Shown here in pieces: positions 13,769 through 22,297 of a stretch of 41,357 nt of DNA. The stretch's first letter is position 1. Each line of letters starts with the position of its first letter. Below the pieces are notes generated by a model. It saw only the letters and a list, made by a program, of their open reading frames with translations. It was not told where the DNA came from and ran no database searches. Source of the DNA: Coriobacteriales bacterium (GTDB taxonomy: Bacteria > Actinomycetota > Coriobacteriia > Coriobacteriales > RUG844); the NCBI GenBank assembly GCA_017434185.1, contig JAFRFV010000198.1:1-41357 (forward strand), read 5' to 3'. The position numbers were made by a program, and so were the translations under genes.

Positions 13769-15901
13769 ATGGTCATCATCGGTCGCATCTGCCTCATCAT
13801 CGCTCTCGCCGCCCTGGTCATCGGTATCGTTTGCATCGCGTTGGGCCTTCTGAAGGGAAGGGATGACGAGCGGGATGCCAAGGGCCTCCTCTGGGGCGGT
13901 CATGTCGCGGGTTTCCTCTCGCTCATCGCTCTCACGATCGCCTGTCTCCTGCTGGTCTTCTGTTTCTTCAGCGGCAACACCGAACTCTATTACGTCGTCT
14001 CATACCGCAGCTCGTCAGGTTGGCTCTTCAAACTCGCCGGTCTCTGGGCGGGCAGGGAGGGCTCGCTGCTGTTCTGGACATGGCTCATGGCACTCTTCGC
14101 CGGCATCATGGCCTGGCGTGATTATCGCAGCTGCAAACCGCTTGACAGCGCCGCTCTGCTCGTGATGCAGATTCTCCTGACCATCTTCGTGAGCATGCTC
14201 GTCTTCAGCTCGAGCAACTCGCCCTTCCAGCCGGTACCGGGAATCTATCTGGATTCCAACGGTCAGCTCAATGCCGTCTCCGCCGTCCTTGGCATGAACA
14301 GCCTGCTCGAGCATTGGGCCATGGCCATCCATCCGCCCACGCTCTTCGTGGGTTATGCGGGACTCGCGGTGCCCTTCGCCTATGGCATGGCAGCGCTCAT
14401 CATGGGCGATTTCAGCCGCTTGTGGGTCGACCGTTGCACGCCCTATGCGCTCTTCTCCTGGCTCTTCCTGGGCTTGGGCATCGGCTTGGGCGCCATCTGG
14501 GCCTACGTGGTGCTTGGCTGGGGCGGCTATTGGGGCTGGGACCCCGTCGAGAACGCCAGCCTCCTGCCCTGGATCCTGTGCGCAGCGCTTATCCACGACT
14601 TCACCGTGTACAGGCAGAAGGGCATCTATCGGCGTTGGACCATCTTCTGCGCCGCACTCACATTCGCCTTCGTGATCCTGGGCACCTTCATCACCCGCTC
14701 CGGCATCGTCCAGTCCGTGCATGCCTTCGAGGGTGATCCACTCTCGCGCATCCTCTTCCTGGGTCTCATCGTTTGTACGTTGCTGGCTCCTGCTGTCGGG
14801 CTCTATCTGCGGCGTGACACCTTCGCTAAGCAGGTCCGCAGCGGCATGGAGGAAACCCAGAGCATGTTCTCGAAGGACATCGCCTATTATCTCAACAACC
14901 TGCTCATGGTGCTCGCAGCACTGCTCATAACCTATCTCACCATCTGCGCCGCTCTTCCCGGATGGATGCCCTTGGGTGGGCATGCGGTGGGCGCCGCGAC
15001 CTATGGTTCCATCGCGCGGCCGCTGGGTGTGTTCTACTGTGGGCTCATCGCCATCTGCCCTCTGCTGTCCTGGACCAGGACCGACAGAGCCGCTTTCCTT
15101 GACAAGGCCAAACTGCCCGCCGCCTGCGCCGCCGGTCTCTTCGTACTGCTCATGGCGTTGTGGCTCACGGTGCTGCTCCCCAACTTCAACGCCGCGCTCG
15201 CCAACGATCCGCAGACCGTGCTCATGGGTGGCCCCGTGGTCTACCAGCACATCATCGCCATCCTGGCCTTCGCCGTCGCGTCACTGCTCTTCTTCAACGC
15301 GCTGTTCATGCTCATCAAGGCCATGTCGTTCAAAGAGGGGAGCATGGCCGTCAAGGCCATGCGTGGCGCGGGTGCCTGTGTGGCCCACATGGCCATGGCG
15401 CTCATCCTGATCGGATTGGTGGGCAGCGACATGTATGTCTTCCAGCGGGACGCCTATCTCCCCTATGACGAGGAGAAGGCGACCACCACCATGACCAGCT
15501 TCGTGGAGGTGGATGAGCACTACCAACTCGAGTTCCTCTCGACCGAGGTCACGAACGGCGCCGATGGTCGCATGGTCCTCACCGTGCACATGAACGTGCA
15601 CAAGGATGGCAAGCTGATAGGTCAGGTCGATCCCGCCATGGAGTACGACCCGATGACGCAGCAGCAGAAACTCATCGCCAGCGTCATCCATCGGCCCACG
15701 CACGACCTGTTCGTCGTCTTCCGGGGCATCAGCACTGCGGGGGCGGGTCTCGCGCTGGACGTTCGCATCAATCCGCTCATATCCATCCTGTGGCTGGGCT
15801 TCGCCCTGCTCATGCTGGGCACGGCCATGGCGTTCGCGGGTGTGATGGCTGCGGGGCACCGTCGCAGGGTCAAGATGAAGGAGCTGAGCGCGCGTGACTG
15901 A
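13769..15901 (+). CDS. ccmF: Cytochrome c heme lyase CcmF
   Basis: A membrane protein of 710 residues that attaches heme to apocytochromes. The tryptophan-rich WWD-type segment WGGYWGWDPVENASLLPW is near residue 250, preceded by HPPTLFVGY with a likely heme-ligand His. Many membrane helices are visible, and an extracytoplasmic domain precedes the last helix. It starts six bases after ccmE and overlaps ccmA by eight bases. No CcmG or CcmH is encoded beside it. Confidence 0.93.
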   Translation: MVIIGRICLIIALAALVIGIVCIALGLLKGRDDERDAKGLLWGGHVAGFLSLIALTIACLLLVFCFFSGNTELYYVVSYRSSSGWLFKLAGLWAGREGSLLFWTWLMALFAGIMAWRDYRSCKPLDSAALLVMQILLTIFVSMLVFSSSNSPFQPVPGIYLDSNGQLNAVSAVLGMNSLLEHWAMAIHPPTLFVGYAGLAVPFAYGMAALIMGDFSRLWVDRCTPYALFSWLFLGLGIGLGAIWAYVVLGWGGYWGWDPVENASLLPWILCAALIHDFTVYRQKGIYRRWTIFCAALTFAFVILGTFITRSGIVQSVHAFEGDPLSRILFLGLIVCTLLAPAVGLYLRRDTFAKQVRSGMEETQSMFSKDIAYYLNNLLMVLAALLITYLTICAALPGWMPLGGHAVGAATYGSIARPLGVFYCGLIAICPLLSWTRTDRAAFLDKAKLPAACAAGLFVLLMALWLTVLLPNFNAALANDPQTVLMGGPVVYQHIIAILAFAVASLLFFNALFMLIKAMSFKEGSMAVKAMRGAGACVAHMAMALILIGLVGSDMYVFQRDAYLPYDEEKATTTMTSFVEVDEHYQLEFLSTEVTNGADGRMVLTVHMNVHKDGKLIGQVDPAMEYDPMTQQQKLIASVIHRPTHDLFVVFRGISTAGAGLALDVRINPLISILWLGFALLMLGTAMAFAGVMAAGHRRRVKMKELSARD

Positions 15902-16607
15902 TGCCATTGTGGCCAAGGGGCTGCGCAAGGCCTTTGGCAGCAGGGTCGCCGTCGATGATCTGAGCTTCACCCTTCCCAAGGGACGTTTCCTGGTCGTCTT
16001 CGGCCCCAACGGTGCTGGAAAGACCACGCTCCTGCGCATGCTCTCCACGCTGTCGCGTCCCAGTGCCGGTAGCGCGAACATCCTGGGTCTCGACCTGATC
16101 GAGGACGCGCAGGAGCTGCGTCGCCACATCGGTTTCATCTCCCATGCTCCCATGCTCTATCCGGCGCTCTCCGCCAGCGAGAACCTCCTGTTCTTCGCTC
16201 GTCTGCAGGGCGTGCCCAACCCGCAGGCCCGCGTGAAGGACCTGCTCGATGCCGTCGAGCTCTCGCATCGTTCACTCGATCCCGTCTCCACCTTCTCGCG
16301 TGGCATGCTGCAGCGTTGCAGTATCGCACGTGCCCTGCTGGGCGACCCGGAGCTGCTCCTGCTCGATGAGCCGTACTCGGGCCTCGACCTGCGTGCTGCG
16401 GACATCTTCGACCAGCTCCTGAGCGATCATCGCGCCGATCGCAGCATCGTCATGGTCAGCCACGATCTGCAGCATGGCTACGACCTCGCCGACCAGCTGC
16501 TGCTCATGTCGCGTGGCAAACTGCTCCTATCAGCTGATAAGGACGACCTTCCCTTCGACGAGTTCCAGCATCGTTTCCGCGCCGGAGCCGGGATGGCGGT
16601 GGGATAG
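15894..16607 (+). CDS. ccmA: Heme exporter ATPase CcmA
   Basis: An ABC ATPase of 237 residues. Walker A is GPNGAGKTT, the signature is FSRGMLQR in place of LSGGQ, and Walker B is LLLLDEPYSGLD. It works with CcmB and CcmC to release holo-CcmE from CcmC. The start is GTG at 15894, eight bases inside ccmF, with AAGGAGC upstream. It abuts ccmB directly. Confidence 0.92.
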   Translation: MTDAIVAKGLRKAFGSRVAVDDLSFTLPKGRFLVVFGPNGAGKTTLLRMLSTLSRPSAGSANILGLDLIEDAQELRRHIGFISHAPMLYPALSASENLLFFARLQGVPNPQARVKDLLDAVELSHRSLDPVSTFSRGMLQRCSIARALLGDPELLLLDEPYSGLDLRAADIFDQLLSDHRADRSIVMVSHDLQHGYDLADQLLLMSRGKLLLSADKDDLPFDEFQHRFRAGAGMAVG

Positions 16608-17303
16608 ATGGGTTTCTTCGAGCAATACCGCGTCCTGCTCAGGAAGGATCTCACACGCGAGTTCCGCAGCAAGGAGATGCTCAGCTCCATGGGCATCTAT
16701 GCCCTGCTCGTACTTGTGGTCTATGGTGCGGCACTCTCGCAGACCTCCAAGGGGCTCGACATCCTGCAGATGTCAGGCGGTCTTATCTGGGCGCTCATCG
16801 TCTTCACCTCGATGCTGGGGCTCAACCGCTCCTTCGCCTTCGAGAAGGAACAGGGCTGTTTGGAGGGTATCCTGCTCGCACCCATCGACCGTTCGACCAT
16901 CTTCCTTTCAAAGGCAACGTCCAATTGCCTGTTCCTGCTGGTGGTGGAACTCATCACGGTGCCGCTCTTCGCCTTCTTCTTCCTGGGTGGCGTCACACTG
17001 GCACCCAGCTGGCCCCTCATCGTCTTCCCGCTGCTGCTGGGCAGCATCGGCATCGCCGGCGTGGGCACGCTCCTGTCCACCATCACGCTGGAGACCAGGG
17101 GCAAGGACGTACTCCTTGCGGTGCTCTTCGTGCCGCTGCTCTTCCCGCTGGTCTACGCCTGTGTCGCCGCGACCACGGGCTGCATGGTGGGGAGCGAGGG
17201 TTTCATGACCACGTATCTACGCAGCCTGTTGCTGGCGGGCGGCTACGACATCATCATGCTCTCACTGTCCTGGGCGCTCTACGACTTCGTCATAAGCGCC
17301 TGA
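16608..17303 (+). CDS. ccmB: Heme exporter membrane protein CcmB
   Basis: A protein of 231 residues with about six membrane helices. It begins with the RKDLTREFRSKEM cytoplasmic segment seen in CcmB proteins and contains FAFEKEQGCLEGILLAP. The ATG immediately follows the ccmA stop, indicating translational coupling. It is the permease partner of CcmA. Confidence 0.92.
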   Translation: MGFFEQYRVLLRKDLTREFRSKEMLSSMGIYALLVLVVYGAALSQTSKGLDILQMSGGLIWALIVFTSMLGLNRSFAFEKEQGCLEGILLAPIDRSTIFLSKATSNCLFLLVVELITVPLFAFFFLGGVTLAPSWPLIVFPLLLGSIGIAGVGTLLSTITLETRGKDVLLAVLFVPLLFPLVYACVAATTGCMVGSEGFMTTYLRSLLLAGGYDIIMLSLSWALYDFVISA

Positions 17304-17325
17304 TACGGGGATCGGAGGTATACAC

Positions 17326-18117
17326 ATGGGGGATAAGCGAACAGGGAACGCGGGCATCTACCCAGCGGTGGGCACATGGGCCGATACTCTGGCTCCCATC
17401 CTGCTGCTCCTGGCGCTCCTTCTCACGACGATCGGCTTCGTGCTCTCCTTCATCTGGGCACCCCCGGTCTACGGTGCATCCGTCAACGGGGTGGAGGTGA
17501 TCGGCGGGCAGGTGGTGTCCAACGTCCTGCTCATCTCACAGAAGATCTTCTACTTCCACATGCCGGTCGCGATCACCAGCTTCCTCGCGCTGGTTGCGGC
17601 GGCGTTCTTCGCCGTCCGCTTCCTCATGACGCGGGAGGCGCGTTTCGACACCATGAGCCGCGTGTGCATGGAGATCGCGCTCGTGTTCGTCATCATGACC
17701 ATGGCGACCGGTGTCATGTGGACGCGCTTCGAGTGGGGGGTCTGGTGGACCTGGGAGCCGCGACTGACCACCTACTTCATCCTGATGCTCATAGTGATCG
17801 GCTACTTCATCCTGCGCAACGCGATCGATGACCCGGAGCGCCGTGCTGTCTACGCCGCTGTGCTCGCCATCATCGCCTTCGTCGACACGCCCATCTGCTT
17901 CATGATCACGCGACTGGTGCCCTCGAGCATCCATCCCGTGGTCCTGCGGCAGGGCGGAGGCATGGGCGTGAGCATGATCGTCCCGCTGCTCATGATCATG
18001 TTCGGTATGGTCATGCTGGGATTCGCCCTGTATCGTCTGCGCTTGCGCAGCATCGTGCTCGAGCAGAAGTGCGATGCCCTTACGGAGACCCTGGAAGACC
18101 AGCGCGAGAGCGCATGA
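17326..18117 (+). CDS. ccmC: Heme handling protein CcmC
   Basis: A protein of 263 residues with about six membrane helices. The heme-binding WWD segment WGVWWTWEPRLT is near residue 136, and the flanking His residues are in FHMPVA and SSIHPV. CcmC loads heme onto CcmE. GGAGG lies seven bases before the ATG. The start region contains a GGATAAG word. Confidence 0.92.
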   Translation: MGDKRTGNAGIYPAVGTWADTLAPILLLLALLLTTIGFVLSFIWAPPVYGASVNGVEVIGGQVVSNVLLISQKIFYFHMPVAITSFLALVAAAFFAVRFLMTREARFDTMSRVCMEIALVFVIMTMATGVMWTRFEWGVWWTWEPRLTTYFILMLIVIGYFILRNAIDDPERRAVYAAVLAIIAFVDTPICFMITRLVPSSIHPVVLRQGGGMGVSMIVPLLMIMFGMVMLGFALYRLRLRSIVLEQKCDALTETLEDQRESA

Positions 18118-18333: not shown

Positions 18334-21300
18334 TCACTCCTGCACTTTGAGGGCGATGGAGAGCGGAACCCCGCGTATACGTCGCATATGCAGGATCGCG
18401 ACGACGGCATAGGTCGCCATGCCTATGAGCACCAACAGCAGCAAGCGCTCCGGGGGCACCACGATCGCGAAGTTGCCCGCGAAGCGGGTGAAGACCAGCT
18501 TCAACAGCACTTTGAGCAGCCAGATGATGAGCGGGATACTCGCCACGAGACTGAACGCGACCGCATAGGTTATGGGGCGTATGTAGAGCCCGTCGATCTC
18601 TCCGTTGTGGTAGCCGAAGACCTTCATATAGCTGATGGAGCGTGAATTGCGATCGATCACGGTCTTGGTCAGCAGATACATCAACACCAGGTAGATGGGT
18701 ACGGCCATGAACATCATCATATACATGATCTCACCCATCGAGTCAGCCATCTGATCGGTGATCTTGTCCATGTCGCTCGGAACGATGAGGGAAGCGACGT
18801 AGCGGTCGTCAAGCAGCAGGGGCGAAGATGAGGCATACGCGTTGAAGTAGTCCGCACCATTGCCGAACATCGCGTTGAAGTCGTCGAGACTCATGTACAG
18901 ATTGGTGTCAGCCTGGTTCGAGGCACAGCTCGCGATGTTCAGATGGTATGTCTCCCCCTCGCGGCGGTTCTCAAGTGTGACTTGAGTGCCAGGCTTCGCG
19001 CCGCATTTCTCCGCAAGACCCTGACCGGCTATGACGACACCGTCGGAAACGGGGATGTCAGTCCAGTACCTGCTCTGCGGCTGGATACCGTAGACGGTGA
19101 TCGTCTCGTATGTGCCACCGAAGCTGCGCATGACCTCCAAGCTGCCCACCGCGTACTTCTCGGTATTGGCGAGAACGCCCGGATCGTTCACCTGGGTGTT
19201 GACCACGTGAGCGTCCTCGTCGATCTTACCGGCCAGACGCAGGTCATCGAGTAGGTCGCGATCCATGTCCTTCACAAGCTCGATGTCATCCTTCGTCGCT
19301 TGATCGAGGTTCGAGAGTAGCTCTATATCGTCCTTGGTCTGCTGGTCGGCATCCATGATGAGTTGCAGATCGTCCTTGGCTTGGCCCTCCAGGTTGGACA
19401 GCAGTTCCAGATCGTCCTTGGTCTGCTGGTCGAGGTTGGAGATGAGTTCGATGTCCGCTCGCGTCTGGGCACTCATGTTGGAGACGGTCTGGATGTCGCG
19501 TTTGGTCTGTGCGTCCATCTTGGATACGGTTTCGATGTCGCGCTTGGTCTGCTCGTCCATACTCGCGGCCTTCTCCATATCCGAACGTGTCTGATCGTCC
19601 ATGCTGGCAACGAGTTCCATGTCGGCGCGCGTCTGCTCGTCGAGGCTCGCAAGCAGCATCAGTTCCTCTTCCGTCGCTGTTCCCTCCTGGGCGTGCTGGG
19701 CTGCGGCGATCACTTCGGGGTGTTCCTGCATGCGCTGGGCAGCTGCAACCAGGTCCTGCTTGCTCTGGAGCCTCTGTGCTGCGGCGATGATATCCTGCTT
19801 GCTCTGGAGCCTCTGTGCCGCGGCGATCATGTATCGTTTGGATTCCAGGCGCTGGGCTGCATCGATCACATATTGCTGATCCTGGAGGCGTTCCGCTGCG
19901 TCAAGCAGGTCCTGCCTGTCCCGCAGCCGCTCTATCGCATCCATGAGCTCCTGGTCCTCCTGCAGGCGCTCTACAGCTTCAAGGAGTTCCGTGTTGTCCA
20001 TCAGGCGTTCGAGCGCATCCATGAGCTCCGTGTTGTCCCGTAGTCGTTTGGCGGCGTCGATCGCATCCTTGTTGGCGTCCATGCGCTCGCGGTCGCTTGC
20101 CAAGCGCAGGGCAGCAGCGTACATCTCGCGTTCCTCGTCACTGCCGTCGAGTTCGAGCGGTGTCTTGAGTACGTATTCATAGGGAGCCTTGACCGTCTCA
20201 CGCAGTTGGTTCGCATACTCTGCGACCACGGGAAGCATGCAGGTGCCGAAGAGCAGTAGCAGACTGGCGAACATGATGCCGCAGAAGAGCGTGACGAAGT
20301 GGCTCGCGTTACGCACGATCACGCGTGTGCGGAACTTGACCGGGTAGGGGAGTCTCTGGGGTAGGCGGATACGTGCGGCGTGATTTCGGCCTGCGACCTC
20401 GTGGCGCAGGAACTGGAGCGGGGTGAAGCGCAGCTTGCGGGCGAGGCCAACGAAGGTGATGCCGATCAACATGACATAGGGCAGGACAGCGGTGATGAGC
20501 ACGATGCGCCAGTTCCAGATCGTCTCGAATGGGGGGAGGCTGTAGCTGTTGTAGTACAGGTCCTTCATGGGCCCATCCAGCACGGTGACGCCGATCGCCA
20601 GACCGATCGCACATGCCAGGAAACCGATGATGGCAGGAAGCAGCAGATAGTGGCGGATGAGTTCGCCTTTGCGCCAGCCGCTCGCCAGCATGGTGCCTAT
20701 GACGGAGCTTTCCTGCTCGATGGTCGCGCCGGTGAGAACGACGAAGACGAAGGCCATGATCACGATGAGGATGAACAGGAGTGCCGTCCACATGGCCTGA
20801 TCACCCACGACATCATCCATCGCATAGCCGATCGCCTGATTGTCGTTCGCATCCAGGAAATCGGAGATCATCGCGTCGTTGTCGTTCAGGGCATCCAGCA
20901 TGTCCTCCTCGATTTCCGTGCGCTGCGTCAGGTCGAGGCTCTTGTCCACGAAACTGAAGGGATAGACGAACGACTCCGTACCCGTGATCCCCTCATAACC
21001 GTTTCCGCCTACCAAGCCCACGGTGAAGGTGAGGGCATCGAACATGAAATCGTTGTTGCCCTTGAACATCGCCTGGTAGTCGGGCAGGGTGAGCACGCCG
21101 GTGATGCGCATGCGCTTACCGCCCAAGGTCACCATGTCGTCGAGTTCCAAGTCGTGGTTGTTCATGAAGACGCGGTCGAAGGCGACTTCGTCATCGGCTC
21201 GCGGCGCGCGTCCGGCGGCGTAGGCGGGCATGTTGATGGTTTCGCGTGCGTCCTGCCTGAAGACACGTGCGGTGATGTCGTTCCTGCCATCGCCCGCATC

Positions 21301-21588
21301 TCCCAAGTCGAGTGTGGCATCCTTGTAGAAGCCCTCATGCACGGTGACACCAAGGGACTCGACCGCCTGGATGGTCTCGTCGTCCGCCTCGAAGTCCAAT
21401 TCGAAGTGCCCGTCTTCGATGGCATAGGTCTGCGGCATCTCTTCGATGATGGTCTCGATGCTGCCCGCGGAAAGCAGGAAGCCGCTCGTGAAGGAGACAG
21501 CGAATACCATCATGAGGAAGATGCCAAGGTATTTTCCCAGGTTGTTGCGCAGCTCTCGGGGATAGCGTTTGGAAATGGGGTTGCGCAT
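18334..21588 (-). CDS. FtsX/MacB-type ABC permease with long repeat domain
   Basis: A protein of 1084 residues. One membrane helix lies near the N-terminus (about 20-41). An extracellular domain follows, then three helices (about 267-383), another near 430-455, a large extracellular region (about 456-950), and three C-terminal helices (about 953-1067), giving two FtsX cores. The large region holds nine 13-residue repeats (512-631) and ten 14-residue repeats (647-786), strongly polar and probably helical. The start at 21588 has GGAG seven bases upstream, one base after the ATPase stop; a longer reading into the ATPase gene is rejected. The exported or sensed substrate is unknown. Confidence 0.88.
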   Translation of the reverse strand: MRNPISKRYPRELRNNLGKYLGIFLMMVFAVSFTSGFLLSAGSIETIIEEMPQTYAIEDGHFELDFEADDETIQAVESLGVTVHEGFYKDATLDLGDAGDGRNDITARVFRQDARETINMPAYAAGRAPRADDEVAFDRVFMNNHDLELDDMVTLGGKRMRITGVLTLPDYQAMFKGNNDFMFDALTFTVGLVGGNGYEGITGTESFVYPFSFVDKSLDLTQRTEIEEDMLDALNDNDAMISDFLDANDNQAIGYAMDDVVGDQAMWTALLFILIVIMAFVFVVLTGATIEQESSVIGTMLASGWRKGELIRHYLLLPAIIGFLACAIGLAIGVTVLDGPMKDLYYNSYSLPPFETIWNWRIVLITAVLPYVMLIGITFVGLARKLRFTPLQFLRHEVAGRNHAARIRLPQRLPYPVKFRTRVIVRNASHFVTLFCGIMFASLLLLFGTCMLPVVAEYANQLRETVKAPYEYVLKTPLELDGSDEEREMYAAALRLASDRERMDANKDAIDAAKRLRDNTELMDALERLMDNTELLEAVERLQEDQELMDAIERLRDRQDLLDAAERLQDQQYVIDAAQRLESKRYMIAAAQRLQSKQDIIAAAQRLQSKQDLVAAAQRMQEHPEVIAAAQHAQEGTATEEELMLLASLDEQTRADMELVASMDDQTRSDMEKAASMDEQTKRDIETVSKMDAQTKRDIQTVSNMSAQTRADIELISNLDQQTKDDLELLSNLEGQAKDDLQLIMDADQQTKDDIELLSNLDQATKDDIELVKDMDRDLLDDLRLAGKIDEDAHVVNTQVNDPGVLANTEKYAVGSLEVMRSFGGTYETITVYGIQPQSRYWTDIPVSDGVVIAGQGLAEKCGAKPGTQVTLENRREGETYHLNIASCASNQADTNLYMSLDDFNAMFGNGADYFNAYASSSPLLLDDRYVASLIVPSDMDKITDQMADSMGEIMYMMMFMAVPIYLVLMYLLTKTVIDRNSRSISYMKVFGYHNGEIDGLYIRPITYAVAFSLVASIPLIIWLLKVLLKLVFTRFAGNFAIVVPPERLLLLVLIGMATYAVVAILHMRRIRGVPLSIALKVQE
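19231..19650 (-). repeat. Ten tandem 42-bp units coding 14-residue repeats
   Basis: Exactly 420 bp encode ten repeats of the pattern SNMDxQTKxDIELV (for example ASMDDQTRSDMEKA and SNLDQQTKDDLELL). The last unit is degenerate (KDMDRDLLDDLRLA). Two heptads per unit fits a helical rod or coiled coil. Confidence 0.92.
19696..20055 (-). repeat. Nine tandem 39-bp units coding 13-residue repeats
   Basis: Nine units of the pattern AAQRLQSKQDIIA lead into a partial AAQ. Units at 19754-19790 and 19793-19829 are nearly identical in DNA, pointing to recent duplication. The other units have diverged. Confidence 0.92.
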
Positions 21589-21589
21589 C

Positions 21590-22297
21590 CTACCACTCCA
21601 ATGTCGACGCGGGGCGGACATCAGGGTTGATCGAGTCCTCCACCAGCTGACCATCGCGCAGGCGCAGGATTCGATTCGCCATATGCTTGATGGCATCGTT
21701 GTGCGTGACGATGATGATGGTGCATCCGTAACGCCGGTTGATGTCCTCCATGAGTTGCAGGATCTCCTTGGAGGTGTTGTAGTCGAGCGCACCGGTGGGC
21801 TCGTCGCAGAGCAGCAAGCTGGGGTTCTTCACCAGTGCACGACCGATCGCGCAGCGTTGTTGCTGACCGCCGGAGACCTGGTTGGGGAATTTGTTGCGGT
21901 GCTCCCACAGTCCCAACGATTGGAGAAGGTCGTCCAAGGGCAGGGGTTCGGGGGATAGGAACTCACAGACCTCGATATTCTCACGTATGGTGAGGTCGGG
22001 TACCAGGCTATAGAACTGGAAGACGAAACCCAGGGACTTGCGGCGGTATTCGACGAGTTGCTTGCCGGAAAGCGCGGTCAGATCCAGATCGCCCACCTTC
22101 ATGCTACCGCTATCCGCGGGCTCCAATCCGCCAACCAAGTTGAGGAAGGTCGATTTGCCGCTGCCGCTGGGCCCAAGCAACACGCAAATCTCTCCGGCAT
22201 CGATGTCCACATCGATGTTCTTGAGAACCTCTGTCCTCGCTTCACCTTGCCCGTAGGACTTGCAGAGCCCTGCAATGGAAAGGAATCCATCTGCCAC
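21590..22297 (-). CDS. MacB/LolD-type ABC transporter ATPase
   Basis: A protein of 235 residues. Walker A is GPSGSGKST, the Q-loop is FVFQFYSL, the signature is VSGGQQQR, Walker B is LLLCDEPTGALD, and the H-loop is VTHND. It powers the permease encoded one base downstream. The start is GTG at 22297, with GGGAGG six bases upstream. The promoter region holds three inverted repeats. Confidence 0.93.
   Translation of the reverse strand: MADGFLSIAGLCKSYGQGEARTEVLKNIDVDIDAGEICVLLGPSGSGKSTFLNLVGGLEPADSGSMKVGDLDLTALSGKQLVEYRRKSLGFVFQFYSLVPDLTIRENIEVCEFLSPEPLPLDDLLQSLGLWEHRNKFPNQVSGGQQQRCAIGRALVKNPSLLLCDEPTGALDYNTSKEILQLMEDINRRYGCTIIIVTHNDAIKHMANRILRLRDGQLVEDSINPDVRPASTLEW

Follow-up and report, generated by a model that had tools for sequence, protein, structure and literature searches.

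Matched tandem arrays of 13- and 14-residue units in a Type VII ABC permease of Coriobacteria, and their likely folding as an extracellular helical ladder

Why should an ABC permease of a known kind carry two distinct repeat arrays in one gene, and why should these evolve at matched copy number? The gene that raises this question lies in the window, by which we mean the whole stretch of 41,357 nucleotides that was analysed, at positions 18,334 to 21,588 of the minus strand. It encodes a protein of 1084 residues with two FtsX domains, in line with the FtsX-type permease that a sequence-only reading of the locus had proposed (Pfam FtsX, PF02687, 63.4 bits in two stretches against a cut-off of 25.5; PF12704 reached 12.4 bits, under the Pfam cut-off of 27). 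Directly upstream lies the gene for a LolD/DevA-like partner ATPase of 235 residues (21,590 to 22,297, minus strand), which matched the NCBIfam models DevA (3e-61) and LolD (2e-57), both under the equivalog/subfamily cut-offs. The permease is not a LolCE equivalog, since it scored 12.5 bits against the NCBIfam lolCE cut-off of 362. An AlphaFold2 model of the full-length protein, with an alignment of 35 orthologs as input, had a mean pLDDT of 85, and its best Foldseek match was Escherichia coli YbbP (1.6e-12 over 1123 alignment columns). A streptococcal MacB-like permease, LolCDE, MacB, HrtB and BceB were also matched, those to YbbP, LolE, MacB and HrtB being at E < 1e-5. The layout of the model together with Foldseek placed a large extracytoplasmic domain of MacB/LolC fold between TM1 and TM2 of each half, and two MacB-like halves are fused in one chain, a YbbP-type trait. 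The permease is a member of the Type VII (MacB/LolCDE/YbbP-fold) ABC permeases.

MacB, LolCDE, FtsEX and YbbAP have been described as Type VII ABC systems that work by mechanotransmission (PMC5985334; PMC12646458). The E. coli YbbAP-TesA complex is a Type VII ABC transporter (PDB 9GE6) in which YbbP has 10 TM helices (PMC12646458). Like YbbAP-TesA, the window system has two FtsX/MacB halves per chain, two extracytoplasmic domains and a separate LolD-like ATPase; the secondary structure predicted by AlphaFold2 has 8 long membrane-type helices and no linking pair, and the permease carries a repeat array, which is not among the described features of YbbP. Fold and topology are also shared with LolCDE, MacB, HrtBA and BceAB, and to our knowledge no arm of this kind is present on any of these. 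The ATPase gene stays beside the permease gene in nearly all relatives, and when neighbouring genes were compared across relatives no other conserved neighbour was found, giving no hint of a partner. On the plus strand of the window, an apparent cytochrome c maturation cluster adjoins the permease gene (13,769 to 18,117; CcmF-, CcmA-, CcmB- and CcmC-like open reading frames, judged by eye).

Both arrays sit in the second extracellular domain, in keeping with the extracellular location proposed earlier, and a single Glu separates them. Array A comprises eleven 13-residue units (residues 492-634; 19,687 to 20,115, minus strand) and Array B eleven 14-residue units (residues 636-789; 19,222 to 19,683, minus strand). 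The sequence-only reading had counted nine and ten units at 19,231 to 20,055. Its two periods were confirmed, as self-identity was 0.57 at lag 13 and 0.53 at lag 14, against at most 0.24 and 0.21 in 5,000 shuffles, whatever the lag, but in register the counts are 11 and 11 and the span is corrected to 19,222 to 20,115; the undercount probably arose because the end units are more diverged. Two 39-bp units said to be nearly identical were indeed so once the register was shifted, agreeing at about 35 of 39 bases, but not in the unit register, where the best pair reached 77% DNA identity among the 13-mers and 83% among the 14-mers. Mean in-register identity was only 52-54%, and most units in the window are therefore old copies. 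Arg occupies position 11 in 10 of the 11 units of Array A and Asp occupies position 7 in 10 of the 11 units of Array B; unit position 1 carries capping residues (D/S/N), and Pro lies near helix starts. Where the arrays meet (19,642 to 19,725, minus strand), the last 13-mer, EHPEVIAAAQHAQ, is followed by the single Glu and the first 14-mer, GTATEEELMLLASL. At the opposite ends, MYA plus the first unit, AALRLASDRERMD (20,077 to 20,124, minus strand), and the last unit, DRDLLDDLRLAGKI (19,222 to 19,263, minus strand), match the first and second helices, respectively, of orthologs with a short loop.

Orthologs of the permease were found throughout Coriobacteria, in a scan of genome contigs and an order-wide scan of 399 genomes. 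The array profile matched 18 of the 399 order genomes, from six genera, always in this permease and at the same spot, and those genomes that have names are, to judge by their titles, mostly ruminant-gut metagenome genomes. The repeats are thus present in relatives, and the same architecture in independent assemblies of other species shows that no sequencing error created them. In a phylum sample of 397 genomes the profile matched only the window's own genome; no array was found outside this gene in that genome or in the sample, and genus and family rescans yielded no further array-bearing species. Matches in G057 and G093 were rejected as arrays and are HEAT-like proteins.

Comparison across species revealed arrays of 4 to 17 units, with equal numbers of 13-mers (n13) and 14-mers (n14) in 15 of the 17 complete species. 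The counts were 17/17 in L038, L041, L042 and L049/L132, 15/15 in L036 and L044, 13/13 in L037 and L045, 12/12 in L039, 11/11 in the window, L043 and L118, 10/10 in L062, 6/6 in L047 and 4/4 in L048 (same as L129; units counted by hand on the sequence). Such agreement was reached in none of 200,000 permutations, and again in none when the near-identical 15/15 genomes were merged (14 of 16 equal). Insert lengths mostly differed by multiples of 27, that is, 13 + 14. The tree requires a minimum of 10 changes in n13 and 9 in n14, and their independent contrasts correlated with r 0.96, or 0.85 without L048, a value reached by none of 5,000 tip shuffles. Both exceptions, L040 (17/14) and L122 (16/17), are recent single-arm changes. 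L122 is separated from its sister L038 (17/17) by branches of only about 0.006, and a block of three 13-mers has been duplicated in L040 (117 bp, 91% DNA identity), whose count without it is 14/14; growth of the arrays by duplication, proposed from the window alone, is hereby borne out. In the other arm of L040 a three-unit block (126 bp, 89% DNA identity) is duplicated too, and these duplications suggest growth by blocks of three units. L048 stands in a clade whose other members are at 17/17, and its 4/4 arm is without the usual tip unit; either a deletion has shortened both strands symmetrically or the assembly is at fault. In L049 (G159 C5:118289-121962) the permease frame is broken near residue 253-273, giving two open reading frames.

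The earlier reading had taken the arrays as successive pieces of one rod. The equal counts, together with the in-register loss of Arg and Asp and the equal helix lengths described below, lead instead to paired strands, and we consider it likely that they build a single extracellular helical hairpin: each array would supply one of its two antiparallel strands, and the resulting ladder would lengthen by whole rungs. The k-th 13-mer from the base would pair with the k-th-from-last 14-mer to form one rung, in which two 11-residue helices lie side by side. This matched two-period ladder is our main new result beyond the earlier reading. Were the arrays instead successive parts of a single HEAT/TPR-like alpha-solenoid of 22 short helices, the equal counts would be coincidence or shared ancestry, and there would be no reason for n13 to equal n14 through about ten changes of n.

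Covariation between the arrays was analysed with unit k of Array A set against unit n+1-k of Array B (antiparallel pairing). Among internal units, Arg was present at position 11 of the 13-mer in 123 of 129 and Asp at position 7 of the 14-mer in 124 of 129. Across eleven non-redundant species with equal counts, all eight losses of Asp fell on rungs that had also lost Arg; there were nine losses of Arg, and the lone one without loss of Asp was at rung 6 of L039. At offsets of 1-4 in either direction, no co-loss was seen (hypergeometric p 4e-12 for the co-loss, ancestry ignored). At least four kinds of substitution replaced the R-D pair: W-G on the rung next to the tip in L039, L043, L045 and L118, G-N on the same rung in L041, H-E at the tip in the window, L037 and L036, and V-A in L040. 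In the last of these, once the duplicated block is discounted, Val for Arg and Ala for Asp both fall at rung 5, and L040 is therefore an independent mid-array case; its W-G rung also comes into register. Three of the four kinds lie within the two rungs nearest the tip, and allowing for shared ancestry leaves only a few events. Taking the four kinds of event only, we estimate chance agreement of register at about 1 in 10,000 or less (1/11 x 1/17 x 1/11 x 1/14 = 3.5e-5, with the tip bias ignored). In 84 tests of conserved column pairs, R11/D7 at offset 0 ranked first and the next two pairs were also at offset 0. Mutual information over all unit columns in each register showed a similar excess at offsets 0-3, and did not single out offset 0. 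For the strong column pairs (11,7) and (12,4) the position numbers add up to 16-18, which is what simple antiparallel pairing of helices would give; the pair (8,4) is less clear. Most rungs would thus be held by contact between Arg at position 11 of the 13-mer and Asp at position 7 of the 14-mer, presumably as a salt bridge. A solenoid offers no reason for co-loss at offset 0 only.

What kind of structure could accommodate such pairing? AlphaFold2 predicted an 11-residue helix in nearly every unit of both arrays, in the full-length and the array-only models alike, with breaks of 2 residues in Array A and 3 in Array B. The pLDDT of the array was 75-86 within the full-length model and 86.5 when modelled alone (pTM 0.57), and the prediction is of ordered helices, not disorder. 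According to these models, units of 13 and 14 residues could be partners because their helices are equal and only their linkers are not; the different periods would arise from the linkers. Foldseek with the array alone returned weak matches (E > 0.05), mostly to long antiparallel hairpins (dynein stalk, SMC, MukB), and alpha-solenoids were missing from the top matches. A PDB sequence search with the permease and the array profile gave no significant match (best 0.018, a nucleolar protein), a Pfam search of array segments gave scattered weak matches only, the HEAT/TPR profiles of Pfam matched none of 16 array members, and the array found only weak tape-measure matches (E > 0.05) in a viral fold library. 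The separate short helices and tight turns of the model, possibly in two layers, do recall HEAT/TPR solenoids, and HEAT-like repeat proteins of about 330 residues in the relatives L146 and L147 are 32% identical to the 13-mers, with no sign of common origin. However, the two helix types of HEAT/TPR proteins alternate in sequence, whereas here all A units precede all B units, and with the Foldseek, Pfam and count evidence we regard a solenoid as quite improbable.

Two hairpin-like alternatives bear on the geometry of the arm. An ordinary continuous coiled-coil hairpin, like SMC stalks or the helical inserts of other permeases, would suit the helical, hairpin-like array region, and Collinsella orthologs carry at the same spot a 97-residue insert that reads as a plain helical hairpin. 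The strict units, the capping residues and the Pro near helix starts speak against a continuous coil, as does the breaking of the helix every 11 residues in both models with no uninterrupted heptad-like periodicity, and this possibility is very improbable. Dynein stalks and SMC arms do share two antiparallel helical strands of matched length with the arm, in addition to the weak Foldseek resemblance; unlike them, the window helices break every 13 or 14 residues and come from two distinct kinds of tandem unit, and species differ in how many rungs they have. In a two-layer zigzag, each array would be a sheet of up-down helices and the sheets would be stacked helix on helix, 13-mer to 14-mer 1:1. 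This keeps the pairing of the ladder and differs in geometry alone, accounts for the equal counts and the covariation as well as a rod does, and would be allowed by turns of 2-3 residues, which can join antiparallel helices. We nevertheless think it unlikely, as the weak Foldseek matches were elongated hairpins and the column pairs (11,7) and (12,4) sum as for simple antiparallel helix pairs. The rod-like arm of the earlier reading is supported, although its elongated, stiff shape is our inference: the ladder would measure about 2 nm per rung and about 22 nm in the window if the chain runs along the rod, or about 1 nm per rung and half the length with helices in zigzag.

The arrays are under purifying selection. 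Their dN/dS was 0.13-0.17, compared with 0.07-0.11 over residues 1-472 of the same proteins, and counts of 17/17 were retained at dS 0.7-1.05. The duplications in L040 do show that the repeats can expand, but these values, together with the equal counts, the covariation and the confidently predicted helices, leave hardly any probability for an unstructured or selfish expansion without function.

How could such an arm have arisen? Within the second extracellular domain, the arrays are flanked by its first strand (residues 470-474) and, on the far side, by a short strand at about residue 795; the counterpart in the first domain of the model is strand 60-64, helix 70-77 and strand 81-83. By this comparison, the Porter-like part of the second domain appears to have the arrays where its first beta-alpha-beta element would have a helix. 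Most orthologs have a loop of 30-38 residues at this site, and where it measures 32-34 residues it can be read as the first 13-mer joined through 2-4 residues to the last 14-mer; in L009, for example, the loop is AYA-AAERIATAESMAD-ILG-DEGMIGDLLLSSTI. Judged from sequence, the short loop looks like a hairpin with one rung and could have been the starting point of the ladder, and tandem duplication in each strand would have lengthened the ancestral rung while selection held both strands at equal length. The array-bearing orthologs formed one fully supported clade in a tree built without the arrays, and the array is therefore most simply read as having a single origin. A 97-residue insert of different sequence occupies the site in L064-L086 and others (Collinsella, Ellagibacter, Slackia isoflavoniconvertens) and reads as an Ala-rich helical hairpin, a third kind of arm. 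One Atopobiaceae ortholog, L046, has there an unrelated insert of 282 residues with a recurring YGLGxVDL-like motif, and the site therefore accepts different arms.

In FtsEX systems the long helical part belongs to the partner, whereas the window permease has its long helical part built in. As a functional model, FtsEX with PcsB, CwlO or EnvC offers ATP-driven extracellular movement handed to a partner, the extracellular loop of FtsX working a coiled-coil hydrolase (for example PMC6355983). Type VII systems shift their extracellular domains when ATP binds in the cytoplasm. In the window permease such motion may similarly travel along the arm to a partner in the wall or at the surface, and a stiff arm of tuned length would also let a distant partner be reached. 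With the chain running along the rod, arm lengths in the family would be roughly 8-34 nm, which is comparable to the thickness of the Gram-positive wall; with stacked helices they would be about half of this. A rigid arm that reaches such a partner or serves as a ruler, in the direction suggested by the earlier reading, is plausible, if inferred.

Literature searches returned no relevant account of tandem repeats or paired arrays in a permease of the FtsX type. Measured against the solved structures and Pfam families searched here, we lean towards regarding the arm as a new architecture, in which each strand of a ladder is a separate tandem array with its own period, salt-bridged rungs in register hold the two copy numbers equal, and the arm of the transporter grows by single rungs, possibly to serve as a ruler of the cell wall. 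The family provides a natural series of lengths, apparently of 1, then 4, 6, 10 to 13, 15 and 17 rungs, with which the growth of a repeat protein while it stays folded, and the transmission of transporter motion over distance, can be probed. The Arg/Asp code of the rungs gives sharp predictions for charge-swap and cross-linking experiments, and designed rods could use the unit pair as a module. A ruler role, if true, predicts that n is correlated with wall thickness.
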